Positions 4,136-11,458 of a stretch of DNA of 33,029 nucleotides are shown here, in pieces. Below the pieces are notes generated by a model. It made no database searches and was not told where the DNA came from. It saw only the letters and a list, made by a program, of their open reading frames with translations. Origin of the DNA: Campylobacteraceae bacterium (lineage in GTDB: Bacteria; Campylobacterota; Campylobacteria; Campylobacterales; Sulfurovaceae); NCBI GenBank assembly GCA_027056485.1, contig JALUKQ010000053.1:1-33029 (forward strand). The letters are read 5' to 3'. Numbering within the stretch: position 1 is the first letter of the stretch; the number at the start of each line of letters is the position of its first letter. A program made the translations under genes and the position numbers.

Positions 4136-4654
4136 ATGTTTATCTGTGCTGGAGAGATTGAAACTTTTGATTTTGCTAAACCAATGGGAATAGGGTTGAT
4201 TGATATCACCATCAACCTTACACGTTATTTAGAAAAAGAAAAACCTGCTTTTATTATGTTTGTTGGAACTGCTGGTTCTTATGGTAAACATAATGTTTTT
4301 GATATTGTTCAATCTAAAACAGCAACTAATATAGAGAATGGTTTTTTTAATGCCAATTCCTATACTCCTATTGATAATATGGTATCTGCATCTGAAGATG
4401 TTTCACGTGAAACAATTGTAAACTCTTCAAACTACATTACAACTGACAGAAGCTTGTCAAAGCATTACCTAAAAAAAGGCATAAGCATAGAGAATATGGA
4501 GTTCTTTGCCGTACTAAAGGTTGCCAAATTTTTTAACATACCCGTTGCTGGTCTATTCATCGTGACAAATCATTGTAATGAAAATGCACACAAGGATTTT
4601 GTAAACAATCATAAAAAAGCAATGCTTCGGTTAACAAACTATGTCAAACAATAA
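4136..4654 (+). CDS. Short purine-nucleoside-phosphorylase-superfamily protein
   Basis: Its 172 residues resemble the nucleoside phosphorylase/MTAN (PNP_UDP) superfamily. Visible are the phosphate/ribose-side strand ending in FVGTAG (about 42-47), the segment NSSNYITTD (96-104) and the ribose-binding motif ENMEFF (119-124), which corresponds to EMEG/EMEA of MTAN and PNP. The position of the MTAN catalytic Asp appears to be Asn in TNHCNEN (144-150), as in some phosphorylases. Family members usually have 230-260 residues, so the N-terminal part is short. The gene begins two bases after hisF and lies just upstream of rlmN, so it is probably in the same operon. It could be a phosphorylase, a hydrolase, or a divergent member without activity. 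The substrate cannot be told from sequence. Confidence 0.75.
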   Translation: MFICAGEIETFDFAKPMGIGLIDITINLTRYLEKEKPAFIMFVGTAGSYGKHNVFDIVQSKTATNIENGFFNANSYTPIDNMVSASEDVSRETIVNSSNYITTDRSLSKHYLKKGISIENMEFFAVLKVAKFFNIPVAGLFIVTNHCNENAHKDFVNNHKKAMLRLTNYVKQ

Positions 4655-5777: not shown

Positions 5778-5870
5778 ATGGGTACTTTAGATATTGTAAT
5801 GATTATTTTTATTGTAATTGTTGTTGTTGTTTCTGCTGTTGGAGTTTATAAAGCATTGAAGGATGATTAG
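5778..5870 (+). CDS. 30-residue single-span membrane miniprotein
   Basis: This very short gene starts with an ATG directly after the rlmN stop codon and ends with TAG. The product begins MGTLDIVMIIFIVIV, continues as an almost unbroken hydrophobic helix, and closes with YKALKDD. It is therefore predicted to be a single transmembrane segment with a short charged tail. A strong ribosome binding site, GGAGG, lies nine bases before the ATG inside the rlmN coding end, which argues for translation coupled to rlmN. No family is recognised, and size alone makes automatic annotation likely to miss it. It could instead be a chance frame, but the good ribosome binding site, exact abutment and consistent hydrophobic profile argue against that. 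Confidence 0.7.
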   Translation: MGTLDIVMIIFIVIVVVVSAVGVYKALKDD

Positions 5871-5871
5871 C

Positions 5872-5973
5872 CGTAGGAGCGACCTCCGTGTCTGCCCTTT
5901 GCTTGCATAAAATAATGTAAAATGGTTTTGTTGACATATTAAACAAAGGGCAGACACGGAGGTCGCCCCTACG
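5872..5973. repeat. Inverted pair of dispersed palindromic repeat (locus A)
   Basis: The two 30-base arms, 5872-5901 and 5944-5973, are inverse complements with one mismatch and are separated by 42 bases. Each arm contains the unit GGGCAGAC-loop-GTCGCCCCTAC, itself a small hairpin with a 6-base loop. The same unit recurs at 10882-10973 and in degenerate form at 14065-14088. The element fills the gap between two convergent genes, abutting the miniprotein stop on one side and the pseudouridine synthase stop on the other, so transcripts from both sides would fold it. The layout resembles REP/BIME-like elements that are moved in trans. No transposase is in the window. Confidence 0.85.
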
Positions 5974-5974
5974 A

Positions 5975-6901
5975 TTATTTATAAAATAATCTTTTATCCT
6001 TAGGACAAATCTCCCCCTTTGCCTCACGAAAATCAACTCTAGATTTAATATGATAAGTTGCTCCATAAGGAAAATAGAGTGAATTTGCATGAAGCATAAG
6101 CCGTGTCGCACCTGTAGCTATAAACCTCTCATCATCACTTATTGTCATATCTAAGTATTTATCAGAATCTTCAAAAGATGTCCCATATATAGGGTCTCCT
6201 AATATAGGATGTTTCACGTGAAACAAATGAATTCGTATCTGATGTAATCTTCCTGTATATGGTTTACACTCTACTAAAGTTGTGTCAAGCTCTGCATCAT
6301 ACTCTAAAGGAATAAACTCTGTTTTCGCTGATTTACCTTCATCTGATATCTCTACCTTATGTTTACAAGTCGTGTAATCTTTACGAACAGATATAGACTC
6401 TTCTACCATAAAAGGTTCTTTTAACTCTCCTACTACCCAAGCCAAATAACTCTTCTGTATGTTTCGTTTTTCAAAAGAACCTTTTAAAAAACGCTCTGCA
6501 TCTTTGTGTCGTGAAGCTAAAAAAAGCCCTGAGGTCTCCATGTCTATTCTGTGTGTTCCATTAGCATTTTGTCCTGAGTGGGTTCGTACTTCATCCAACA
6601 TCGAATACTCAGTTGCCATAGTATTTGGATGAACTAAAACGCCAGAAGGTTTGTCAAAGACCAAAAAGTTCTTGTCGACAAATATCGGCTTAACACCTCT
6701 ACTCTTTGGTTCAAAATAAACAACTTCTATGTCACCTTCTATAATTTCACCTGTATAGTAAATGGATTTTCCATCAATAAGTATACGACCTTTGGCTATA
6801 AGACGTTGTGCCTCACCTTGTGTAAAGTTAAATTGTTTCATGATAAATAGAAAAGCTTTGGTTGGTTTTTCTACATGAAAAGGACGTTTAACGAATGGCA
6901 T
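5975..6901 (-). CDS. RluA-family 23S rRNA pseudouridine synthase
   Basis: This enzyme isomerises specific uridines to pseudouridine, most likely in 23S rRNA. Of 308 residues, an S4-like RNA-binding region spans about 15-62 (NFTQGEAQRLIAKGRILIDG). The catalytic domain follows, with HRIDMETSG (117-125) carrying the catalytic aspartate D120, and later GRLHQIRIHL. The length fits RluC/RluD-type members, but which uridines are modified cannot be assigned. Some bacterial paralogues act on tRNA. The ATG is preceded by AGAGGTGAAAAT, a good Shine-Dalgarno sequence. It diverges from purB across 77 bases and ends against the inverted repeat of locus A. Confidence 0.93.
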   Translation of the reverse strand: MPFVKRPFHVEKPTKAFLFIMKQFNFTQGEAQRLIAKGRILIDGKSIYYTGEIIEGDIEVVYFEPKSRGVKPIFVDKNFLVFDKPSGVLVHPNTMATEYSMLDEVRTHSGQNANGTHRIDMETSGLFLASRHKDAERFLKGSFEKRNIQKSYLAWVVGELKEPFMVEESISVRKDYTTCKHKVEISDEGKSAKTEFIPLEYDAELDTTLVECKPYTGRLHQIRIHLFHVKHPILGDPIYGTSFEDSDKYLDMTISDDERFIATGATRLMLHANSLYFPYGATYHIKSRVDFREAKGEICPKDKRLFYK

Positions 6902-8477: not shown

Positions 8478-10865
8478 ATGATAAGAGTTGTAAAAAGAAG
8501 TGGTCGAATTGAAACATTGGACATTACAAAAATTCAAAAACACACCTCTGCTTCAGTAGCAGGTTTAGAGAATGTTAGTCAGAGTGAACTCGAAGTTGAC
8601 GCGAATCTTCAATTTCAAGACATGATGAGTTCTGAAAATATACAGTTGACACTTATTAAGACAGCTGTTGACAAGATTGATATTGACAGACCAAACTGGA
8701 CTTTTGTAGCAGCTAGACTTTTTCTTTATGACCTTTATCATAAAGTTGGTGGTAACGTTGGTGGTATTAAAGGTGAACCATATTTTCATTTAAGTAAATA
8801 TTTTGAACGTGGAGAGCAAGAAGGTCGTATTTTACTTGGACTTAAAGAGAAGTATGACCTTAATGATTTAAATGACTATATTGTACCTGATCGTGATTTA
8901 CAGTTTAACTATCTAGGTATACGAACTCTTTACGATAGATATTTACTAAAAGATGGTGAGGGTAAACCTATAGAACTTCCTCAACAGCTATTTATGGGCG
9001 TTGCTATGTTCTTAGCTCAAAATGAGTTTGATTGTCAAGCATGGGCAAAAAAGTTTTATGACATCTTGTCAAAATTTGAGGTTATGGCTGCCACACCTAC
9101 CCTCTCTAATGCTCGTACACCTAGACACCAGTTGTCATCATGTTACATAGGTTCATCCCCTGACAACATCGAAGGTATTTTTGATGTTTACAAAGAGATG
9201 GCACTCTTGTCAAAGTTTGGTGGAGGAATCGGTTGGGACTGGTCACAGGTTCGTGGAATGGGTTCATATATAGATGGACACAAACATGCAGCAGGTGGGA
9301 TTGTTCCTTTTTTGAAAATTGCTAATGATGTTGCCATTGCTGTTGACCAACTTGGAACACGTAAAGGTGCTATTGCTGTTTACGTTGAGCCTTGGCATAT
9401 TGACATAAGAGATTTTCTCGACCTTAAGAAAAACTCAGGAGAAGAGAGAAGAAGAGCTCATGATCTTTTTCCTGCTTTATGGCTAAACGATCTATTTATG
9501 CAAAGGGTTCAAGAGGATGGACGATGGACACTATTTGACCCTTATGAAGTACGTGAGTTGACAGACCTTTACGGTAAAGAATTTGAAGAACGCTACTTAG
9601 CATTAGAGGAAGGTACAAGTAATATTACACGTGAAACTATCTCGGCTAAAAGTTTATGGAAAGAGATTTTACGCTCATACTTTGAAACAGGAAACCCATT
9701 TTTAACATTTAAAGATGCAGCAAATAAAGCTAACCCCAATAAACATACAGGAATCATAAGAAGCTCAAACCTCTGTACAGAGATTTTTCAAAACACTGCC
9801 CCAAACTATTATAAAATAAAATTGACATTTGTTGATGGTTCCATTACTGTACTAGAAGAGGAGGAGATGGTTACTGTTGATAATGGCATGACAAAACCTG
9901 CTAAGAAGATTACAGCACTTGACTCTATTGGAGGTAAACAAATTTGGATGGTTGACAAAGAACAGACCGATGGTGACACAGCTGTCTGTAACCTTGCATC
10001 AATTAACTTATCAAAAATCAATACTAAAGAAGATATAGAGAGAGTTGTTCCTATTGCTATACGAATGCTTGACAATGTTATTGACTTAAACTTTTACCCA
10101 TTGTCAAAAGTTAAAAAGACAAATGAAAAAACTCGTGCCATTGGTTTAGGTGTTATGGGTGAGGCTCAAATGTTGGCTGAGTCAAAAATAGTTTGGGGTT
10201 CAAATGAACACTTTCATAAAGTAGATGAAGTAATGGAGTCAGTATCTTACTATGCTATTAAATCATCATCTGATTTAGCTATAGAGAAAGGAAAGTACCC
10301 AACCTATGAAGGTTCAGAGTGGAGCAAAGGTATCTTCCCTATTGACAATGCAAATACAGAAGCTTGTAAACTGGTTGACCGTGGTGGACTCTTTGGTTAT
10401 ACACATGACTGGTTAGCACTTAAAGAGAAAGTAAAGAGTGATGGTATGCGTAATGGTTACTTGATGGCAGTTGCACCTACTTCGTCAATCTCTATCTTAA
10501 CAGGTACAACACAAGCAATTGAACCTGTTTACAAACGTAAATGGTTTGAAGAGAACTTGTCAGGTCTTATCCCTGTAGTTGTACCAAACTTGTCACCTGA
10601 TACTTGGGAGTACTACACTCCATCTTATGACCTTGACCAAAATGTATTGGTTAAAGCTGGAGCCATTAGACAAAAATGGATAGATCAAGGACAATCCCTT
10701 AACATCTTTATTACACTTGACAAAGCTTCTGGTAAATATCTCAATGAGATTTACATGAATGCTTGGAAGTATGGATTGAAATCAACATACTATTTAAGAA
10801 GTCAATCTCCTGAGGCTTCAAATGATATTGAAGACCGTTCTCAGGAATGTGTTGGGTGTCAATAA
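8478..10865 (+). CDS. nrdA: Class Ia ribonucleoside-diphosphate reductase alpha subunit
   Basis: NrdA reduces ribonucleoside diphosphates to deoxynucleotides together with the radical-bearing beta subunit NrdB, which is not in this window. Its 795 residues begin with an ATP-cone (about 1-90, VVKRSGRIETLDITKIQKH) that senses ATP/dATP. The active-site set is present: C222 (SSCYIGS) and C504 (DTAVCNLASIN) as the redox pair, C433 in NLCTEIF as the thiyl-radical cysteine, the tyrosine pair in KSTYYLRS, and the C-terminal shuttle cysteines C791 and C794 (CVGCQ). Between the radical loop and C504 there is an insertion of about 55 residues (443-498), which I recall as a feature of Helicobacter/Campylobacter enzymes. 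The ATG is preceded by AAGGAAG. The paired repeat of locus B lies just after the stop. Confidence 0.96.
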   Translation: MIRVVKRSGRIETLDITKIQKHTSASVAGLENVSQSELEVDANLQFQDMMSSENIQLTLIKTAVDKIDIDRPNWTFVAARLFLYDLYHKVGGNVGGIKGEPYFHLSKYFERGEQEGRILLGLKEKYDLNDLNDYIVPDRDLQFNYLGIRTLYDRYLLKDGEGKPIELPQQLFMGVAMFLAQNEFDCQAWAKKFYDILSKFEVMAATPTLSNARTPRHQLSSCYIGSSPDNIEGIFDVYKEMALLSKFGGGIGWDWSQVRGMGSYIDGHKHAAGGIVPFLKIANDVAIAVDQLGTRKGAIAVYVEPWHIDIRDFLDLKKNSGEERRRAHDLFPALWLNDLFMQRVQEDGRWTLFDPYEVRELTDLYGKEFEERYLALEEGTSNITRETISAKSLWKEILRSYFETGNPFLTFKDAANKANPNKHTGIIRSSNLCTEIFQNTAPNYYKIKLTFVDGSITVLEEEEMVTVDNGMTKPAKKITALDSIGGKQIWMVDKEQTDGDTAVCNLASINLSKINTKEDIERVVPIAIRMLDNVIDLNFYPLSKVKKTNEKTRAIGLGVMGEAQMLAESKIVWGSNEHFHKVDEVMESVSYYAIKSSSDLAIEKGKYPTYEGSEWSKGIFPIDNANTEACKLVDRGGLFGYTHDWLALKEKVKSDGMRNGYLMAVAPTSSISILTGTTQAIEPVYKRKWFEENLSGLIPVVVPNLSPDTWEYYTPSYDLDQNVLVKAGAIRQKWIDQGQSLNIFITLDKASGKYLNEIYMNAWKYGLKSTYYLRSQSPEASNDIEDRSQECVGCQ

Positions 10866-10881
10866 TATTATAGAACAACAT

Positions 10882-10973
10882 GGGCAGACACATCGGTCTG
10901 CCCCTACGGCTCAATATGTTTTTAAAATCTTTTAATCTATGCAACATGTAGGGGTAGACCAATGTGTCTACCC
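10882..10973. repeat. Inverted pair of dispersed palindromic repeat (locus B)
   Basis: Two 26-base units, 10882-10907 and 10948-10973, face each other and differ at three positions. They are separated by 40 bases. Each unit is a perfect hairpin: GGGCAGAC with GTCTGCCC around loop ACATCG on the left, and GGGTAGAC with GTCTACCC around loop CAATGT on the right. Each also carries a CCTAC/GTAGG tail. It starts 16 bases after the nrdA stop, and the long foldback may end nrdA transcription. Unit, tail and spacer length match locus A at 5872-5973. Confidence 0.87.
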
Positions 10974-11149: not shown

Positions 11150-11458
11150 ATGAATTTTGAAAATGTAACGGTAGACATTGCAGGTAACAGTTATTTTGAC
11201 GGAGCTGTAACAAGCAGAACAATTCACTTTACAGATGGAAGCAGAAAAACTTTAGGTTATATGCAAAAAGGTGAATTTGAGTTTGGAACAGAGGCTGCAG
11301 AGCTTATGGAGATAACAGCTGGTGAATTAGATTATAAATTAGCAGATTCAAATGAGTGGATAAGTGTTAAAGGTGGAGAAAGTTTTAATGTACCTGCCAA
11401 CTCAAAGTTCCAAGTAAATGTAAAAAAGATTACAGACTACTGTTGCTCTTACCTCTAA
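11150..11458 (+). CDS. ppnP: Pyrimidine/purine nucleoside phosphorylase PpnP (YaiE family)
   Basis: PpnP is a small cupin-fold enzyme (formerly DUF1255; YaiE in Escherichia coli) that phosphorolytically cleaves a range of purine and pyrimidine nucleosides for salvage. The 102 residues are close to the usual 94. The family hallmarks are easy to see: VTSRTIHFTDGSRKTLG, GEFEFGTEA, MEITAGELDY, FNVPANSKF and the C-terminal DYCCSYL. The gene has its own TATAAT and ribosome binding site, stands alone, and converges with the unrecognised gene on its right. Confidence 0.94.
   Translation: MNFENVTVDIAGNSYFDGAVTSRTIHFTDGSRKTLGYMQKGEFEFGTEAAELMEITAGELDYKLADSNEWISVKGGESFNVPANSKFQVNVKKITDYCCSYL

Follow-up and report, generated by a model that had tools for sequence, protein, structure and literature searches.

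REP sequences are among the commonest bacterial repeats, and to our knowledge little has been described of how REP pairs change after their insertion. Small inversions are familiar at hairpins in plastomes, where a short stretch between inverted repeats can lie one way round in one genome and the other way round in a relative. Among the systems closest to the locus described here, 24 families of GTAG REPs are presented in the consulted part of PMC3733652, where it is given as a rule of thumb that the spacers of tail-to-tail (TT) pairs are variable and those of head-to-head (HH) pairs conserved. REPs lying in frame between the HuH and Y motifs are a known feature of the TnpA-REP proteins of subclass 2.4 (PMC6006769, in the sections available), and other TnpA-REP proteins are described as binding the folded single-stranded form of the REP strand, with the GTAG being important, and as cutting nearby (PMC8266576, in the part consulted).

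The window, which is the whole stretch of 33,029 nucleotides analysed here, is contig C53 of a 2.48 Mb draft genome (G000) that is 87% complete. G000 shares its family with G048, recognised from identical match positions as the assembly of Nitratifractor sp. S142_10, and thus falls in the same branch of Campylobacterota (Sulfurovaceae). Locus B within this window consists of two hairpin units of 26 bases each, 40 bases apart, with arms of the GTAGGGGYAGACCRATGTGTCTRCCC type (Table 1); on re-measurement the unit length, coordinates and spacer agreed with the initial annotation. Dinucleotide shuffling gave a chance expectation of 0 for the repeat, with a match in 0 of 100 shuffles. Folded as single-stranded DNA, both units take the form of GTAG, an 8-bp stem and a 6-base loop, with z-scores of −5.0 and −3.3 for the single units and −6.3 for the whole dimer, and in both arms the base of the stem is made of three G-C pairs beside the GTAG foot. 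Each unit is a palindrome with an unpaired GTAG at one end and is repeated in the genome, as is characteristic of GTAG REPs, and the locus B units are REP (GTAG) sequences. An Rfam scan of the window gave no match.

Table 1. Coordinates of the REP pairs of the window and of the genes flanking locus B.
Feature	Position	Strand	Remarks
Locus A, REP dimer of a different class, head-to-head	5873..5972		Arms GTAGGRGCGACCTCCGTGTCTGCCC, 50-base spacer
nrdA, ribonucleoside-diphosphate reductase subunit alpha	8478..10865	(+)	Dimer begins 16 bases past the stop codon
Locus B, REP unit, C-type arm GTAGGGGCAGACCGATGTGTCTGCCC	10882..10907	(-)	GTAG foot at the right (inner) end
Locus B, spacer (40 bases), a member of the conserved tail-to-tail family	10908..10947	(+)	Inverted in sister genome G088
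Locus B, REP unit, T-type arm GTAGGGGTAGACCAATGTGTCTACCC	10948..10973	(+)	GTAG foot at the left (inner) end
ppnP-like, pyrimidine/purine nucleoside phosphorylase	11150..11458	(+)	Downstream of the dimer; Pfam PF06865, 126.8 bits

The GTAG feet point inward at locus B (TT) and outward at locus A (HH), the latter being the direction taken by the feet of REPINs. Loci A and B had been annotated as having the same architecture; with feet in opposite directions and different arm sequences (GTAGGRGCGACCTCCGTGTCTGCCC at locus A, GTAGGGGYAGACCRATGTGTCTRCCC at locus B), the architecture is therefore not shared. The spacer of 42 bases assigned to locus A was obtained only with TTTG/CAAA taken into the arms, the distance between the 25-base arms being 50 bases. 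The gap that holds locus A adjoins a gene for an RluA-family pseudouridine synthase and is a re-used or replaced REP site. The orthologues of positions 5870–6010 (L348–L375) contain REP-like hairpins whose classes and orientations vary among members of the genus. In genome G044, a fused short palindrome GTAGGTGTGACCGTGTCACACCTAC (L416) stands where G000 has a head-to-head pair, as a central deletion of such a pair would give. A head-to-head REP class GTAGGTGTGACCATGTCACAC, with a similar spacer of its own, was seen at L417, L427, L402, L446 and L431, sites at which sister genomes carry units of the locus B or locus A class. Elsewhere in the window, two copies of GATGTTTCACGTGAAACAA lie inside open reading frames (4397–4418 and 6208–6229); this sequence resembles parS, a chromosome-partition site.

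A collection of all copies in G000, as had been proposed, gave 13 units at up to 3 mismatches, against 0 for a reversed-pattern control; these are almost always single, with locus B as the sole pair among the 13. Relatives were also found in related genomes, with units at up to 2 mismatches in 26 of 100 genomes of the family and a maximum of 85 in one genome. The exact unit pattern, with 20 fixed bases and two stem pairs left free, was present in at least 120 stretches of public bacterial genomes belonging to many phyla. With a pairing filter applied, and in loci selected because they contain a unit, orientations in 120 stretches were counted as 55 HH, 40 HT and 19 TT. A literature search with the unit sequence gave nothing on bacterial repeats, as judged by title.

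The two units of locus B differ at unit positions 8, 14 and 23, and positions 8 and 23 are stem partners (C-G in one unit, T-A in the other), exactly as annotated. The accompanying claim that pairing in the stem is kept while the sequence changes was borne out by strong covariation at pairs 8–23 and 12–19. For 92 units from 80 loci among the pan-bacterial matches listed, both of the stem pairs left free were complementary in 89, compared with a mean of 37.9 and a maximum of 53 in 5000 shuffles. Within the genus, 154 units were compared (150 listed of 185 matches, including none from G044 and nine of the 15 from G000, and four further G000 units), with pair 8–23 being T-A in 71 and C-G in 70, and pair 12–19 being C-G in 81 and G-C in 69. 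The 69 distinct sequences among these showed Watson-Crick pairing in 57 at pair 8–23 (31.6 when shuffled, maximum 49) and in 66 at pair 12–19 (33.5, maximum 50), figures to be read with the caveat that kinship among sequences can beat shuffles even without structure. Pairs 5–26, 6–25, 7–24 and 11–20 are nearly invariant and therefore uninformative on covariation. Two-sided changes at separate stem pairs would be hard to explain without structure.

Tail-to-tail pairs, sought with the pattern CCCCTAC-N14..44-GTAGGGG, were found at 48 sites in 12 of the 34 genomes of the genus, with one palindromic site in the reversed control; one of the 48 places (contig C154 of G088) lacks proper arms. Spacers were 40–42 bases long in 23 cases, 38 in one and 18–29 in 24, with none at 14–17 or 30–37, so that the proposed preference for a length near 40 was recovered together with a second mode at 18–29. 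By eye, 20 of the 23 spacers of 40–42 bases form one family, the other three being from G075. Arm polarity in this family is fixed in 15 members, where TTCAAT marks the end that bears the C-type arm and GCAACAT/GCGACCT the end with the T-type arm; it is reversed in one member and unclassable in four. The alignment of the window spacer with each of five family members tested (from G027, G103 and G088) was better than all of 2000 shuffles, whereas three spacers of other types (from G091, G107 and G075) aligned with it no better than shuffles. Genome G027 alone carries nine TT pairs, with spacers of 41–42 bases that have sequence in common. Inverted REPs whose joining spacer has a preferred length or sequence are thus present, as in BIMEs and other REP dimers, and because the spacer is conserved and the polarity fixed, the pair behaves as one BIME-like unit. 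Such a pair may be the mobile form, an idea weakened by the finding that nearly all units of G000 are single. Neither an empty site nor excision of a doublet was found. On contig C269 of G088 (L386/L307) a locus B-family spacer is flanked on both sides by arms of the locus A class, and the arm class can therefore change under a constant spacer.

The site behind nrdA, a gene located in 27 of the 34 genus genomes, carries the dimer in G000, G110, G044 and G088 and one degraded unit in G103. No unit was found behind nrdA in the remaining genomes where the site was readable, the comparison being uninformative for G091, G105, G107 and G100 because the gene end was not located. The nrdA–ppnP gap of G027 is shorter as a whole, and no clean empty site for the dimer was seen among the genomes compared at this gap. 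At least four related genomes inherited locus B in place, and no recent movement of this copy was shown.

When locus B was compared between G000 and G088, the spacer was found to be 39/40 identical in the inverted orientation and 14/40 in the direct one, and between G110 and G088 the inverted match was 40/40. The flanks of G000 and G088 are collinear, with 91% identity over 200 nt on the left and 88% over 137 nt on the right. In G088 the right arm is a hybrid with a C-type inner half and a T-type outer half, and the left arm is entirely T-type, which on these sequences needs one or more changes beyond a flip. Locus A is likewise inverted in G088 (48/50 inverted against 34/61 direct), with 162/204 and 166/203 aligned columns identical in its flanks. 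Dimer sites were matched by their flanking DNA, and those with a related dimer in at least two genomes were regarded as comparable. Opposite spacer orientations were observed at three of the eight comparable sites (A, B and the L388 site). Of the eight, loci A and B were the first examined, and the remaining six were found by looking for additional cases. At the L388 site, G103 and G027 match at 35/43 inverted and 28/42 direct. Opposite orientation at the L379 site is suggestive between G091 and G044, whose spacers are short, and undecided between G103 and G091, and the same orientation was found at L377, L381, L383 and L382 (the last with one flank well matched). For five of the 16 reference dimers, namely L387 (which is paired with L382), L390, L392, L393 and L396, no two-flank counterpart was found in another genome. 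The comparison, drawn from draft assemblies and not from reads, suggests that the segment enclosed by the locus B hairpins can turn around in place.

A linked Y1-type transposase had also been predicted. Six Y1 matches were detected in G000; none was recognised as belonging to the RAYT clade that accompanies such units in relatives (...QWFKTMTTNEYI...WQRNYYEHIIRNE...), where the genes are flanked by units and contain them, and no locus B-type units were found in the flanks of the G000 Y1 loci examined. In G027, of the same genus, HH and TT pairs lie alongside the RAYT gene, one with the conserved 41-base spacer, and the gene has one unit of the locus B REP class in frame, the units of this genome being mostly a GAG/CTC variant of the GAC/GTC unit of the window. 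The prediction thus holds beside such pairs in this sister genome, with no cognate RAYT detected in the 87% complete G000. The RAYT scored 64 bits with NF047646 (below its cut-off of 80) and 30.2 bits with PF01797 (cut-off 23), and matched TnpArep of PDB 4er8 with an E value of 8.5e-4. In a subset of the clade's matches amounting to 45 distinct ORFs, a unit lies between HUH and Tyr in 23 and two or more do so in 14; for 11 ORFs in this set either HUH or Tyr was unmapped and units were not countable as internal, L158 and L162 among these holding in-frame units. A unit was present within 400 bases outside the ORF in 22 and in any position in 32. Across 100 family genomes, units occur in six of the ten with the RAYT (E ≤ 1e-15) and 20 of the 90 without it, a modest association (Fisher p 0.018). 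In G045, G043 and G033, the RAYTs of this clade accompany other unit classes or none of the locus B class. No clade RAYT was found among the Y1 loci compared in G044, G088 and G091, which hold 29, 31 and 22 unit copies, and with none in G000 either, the link to a RAYT therefore rests on relatives. The presence of REPs inside RAYT genes was considered as a novelty and rejected, being already described in the available sections of PMC6006769. A Y1-type frame with many in-frame GTAG-type repeats was also observed at L142 (887–1825).

Locus B is very probably a tail-to-tail GTAG REP heterodimer, BIME-like and of the RAYT/TnpA-REP group-4 (subclass 2.4) type, that is ancestral behind nrdA, has been inherited there and can flip in place. 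The hairpins, their covariation, the conserved spacer and polarity, the RAYT linkage in a sister genome, the orthology and the inverted spacer are features of the sequences compared; the cleavage and spread by a RAYT, and the manner of the flip, we infer. As far as the subclass 2.4/RAYT group 4 REPtrons are covered by the sections of PMC6006769 available, the likeness extends to long canonical REPs with a GTAG foot and three basal G-C pairs, to REP-flanked RAYT genes with in-frame REPs between HUH and Tyr (here in relatives only) and to a scattering over phyla; the difference is that such a gene was not detected in G000. Neither a conserved TT spacer nor a spacer inversion like that of locus B was found described in those sections. 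The GTAG REP families with HH and TT dimers in the consulted part of PMC3733652 share the GTAG foot, complementary stem changes, heterodimers, TT pairs, spacers mostly of 20–100 bp and positions after genes. Its rule of thumb differs from the locus B family, in which the TT spacer is conserved, and its text as covered, figures apart, does not contain the string GTAGGGG. As in REPINs (PMC3116915, in part) and the BIMEs of E. coli, an inverted REP pair and its spacer constitute one unit and singlets are read as remnants, but the feet of locus B lie inside, unlike those of REPINs, and singles predominate in G000. The small inversions of plastomes, so far as the material consulted describes them, are similar in having a stretch in either orientation and different in concerning organelle DNA with no REP or RAYT.

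Each arm would act as a single-stranded DNA hairpin, its GTAG foot recognised by a TnpA-REP-type protein, and the REP strand would here as well be bound in single-stranded form and cut near the GTAG. Dimers may have spread in this way in the past. Locus B would have been placed behind nrdA in an ancestor shared by at least four related genomes, with inheritance since then. Recombination or replication template-switching between the arms would then turn around the spacer and the inner arm halves, a route that is most likely because the two arms are inverted repeats. The two flips in G088, where no clade RAYT was detected, argue somewhat against a role of the RAYT in the flip itself.

The hairpins could instead be kept as RNA structures, serving as a terminator or stabiliser at the nrdA 3′ end or in the intergenic region, with the spread of the repeat being incidental. 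The retention of the dimer in four genomes just past the nrdA stop codon would fit such a role, as would several single copies that by eye also directly follow stop codons and the fact that the hairpins stay intact when the spacer flips. A terminator, however, needs neither a conserved GTAG foot nor a conserved spacer, and the unit is absent from the nrdA site in other genomes. A scan for terminators and promoters found nothing on the nrdA strand that accounts for the element, the sole terminator-like match being on the minus strand, opposite nrdA (one found, shuffle mean 0.3), and an RNA role is regarded as very unlikely to explain the locus. Movement of the units by a Y1 transposase of another clade in G000 (L003–L006) would draw on the six Y1 matches of that genome and on the many units of G044, G088 and G091, in which no clade RAYT was detected; it is given an equally small chance, since the GTAG hairpins that flank the other clades belong to other classes (GTAGGTCGGG.., GTAGGGTGTAGACC.., GTAGGGTGCGATTG..).

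The orientation in G088 might also stem from an independent insertion in the opposite direction at a favoured site, with no inversion in place. Different REP classes are held in different species by the intergenic site of locus A and at at least four of the 16 reference dimer sites (L378, L383, L386 and L388), and sites are therefore re-used. The locus B spacers of G088 and G110, however, are fully identical when inverted, whereas other family members give 30–35 matches over 40–43 columns and a shortened member 21/42, and the hybrid right arm of G088 between unchanged outer flanks is as exchange within the arms predicts. Such a second insertion is accordingly thought unlikely, and inversion in place is preferred.

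It is this flipping in place that is the unusual part, the element being otherwise of known REP type; a literature search on REP dimer inversion, judged mostly without full texts, returned nothing recognisable. From several sites in draft genomes, the chances appear about even that REP dimers of the locus B family are frequently invertible in place, through exchange inside the inverted hairpin arms that reverses the spacer together with the inner halves of the arms, with later changes restoring the pairing of the arms. If so, REP dimers would be natural flip elements, and the mixed C-type and T-type arms would reflect flipping and re-sorting that took place repeatedly. Sites at which sister species differ in the orientation of a shared dimer may offer a direct handle on whether local inversions are promoted by REP hairpins, and the occurrence of one unit across many phyla, along with RAYTs specific to clades, may serve as a natural test set for REP recognition.
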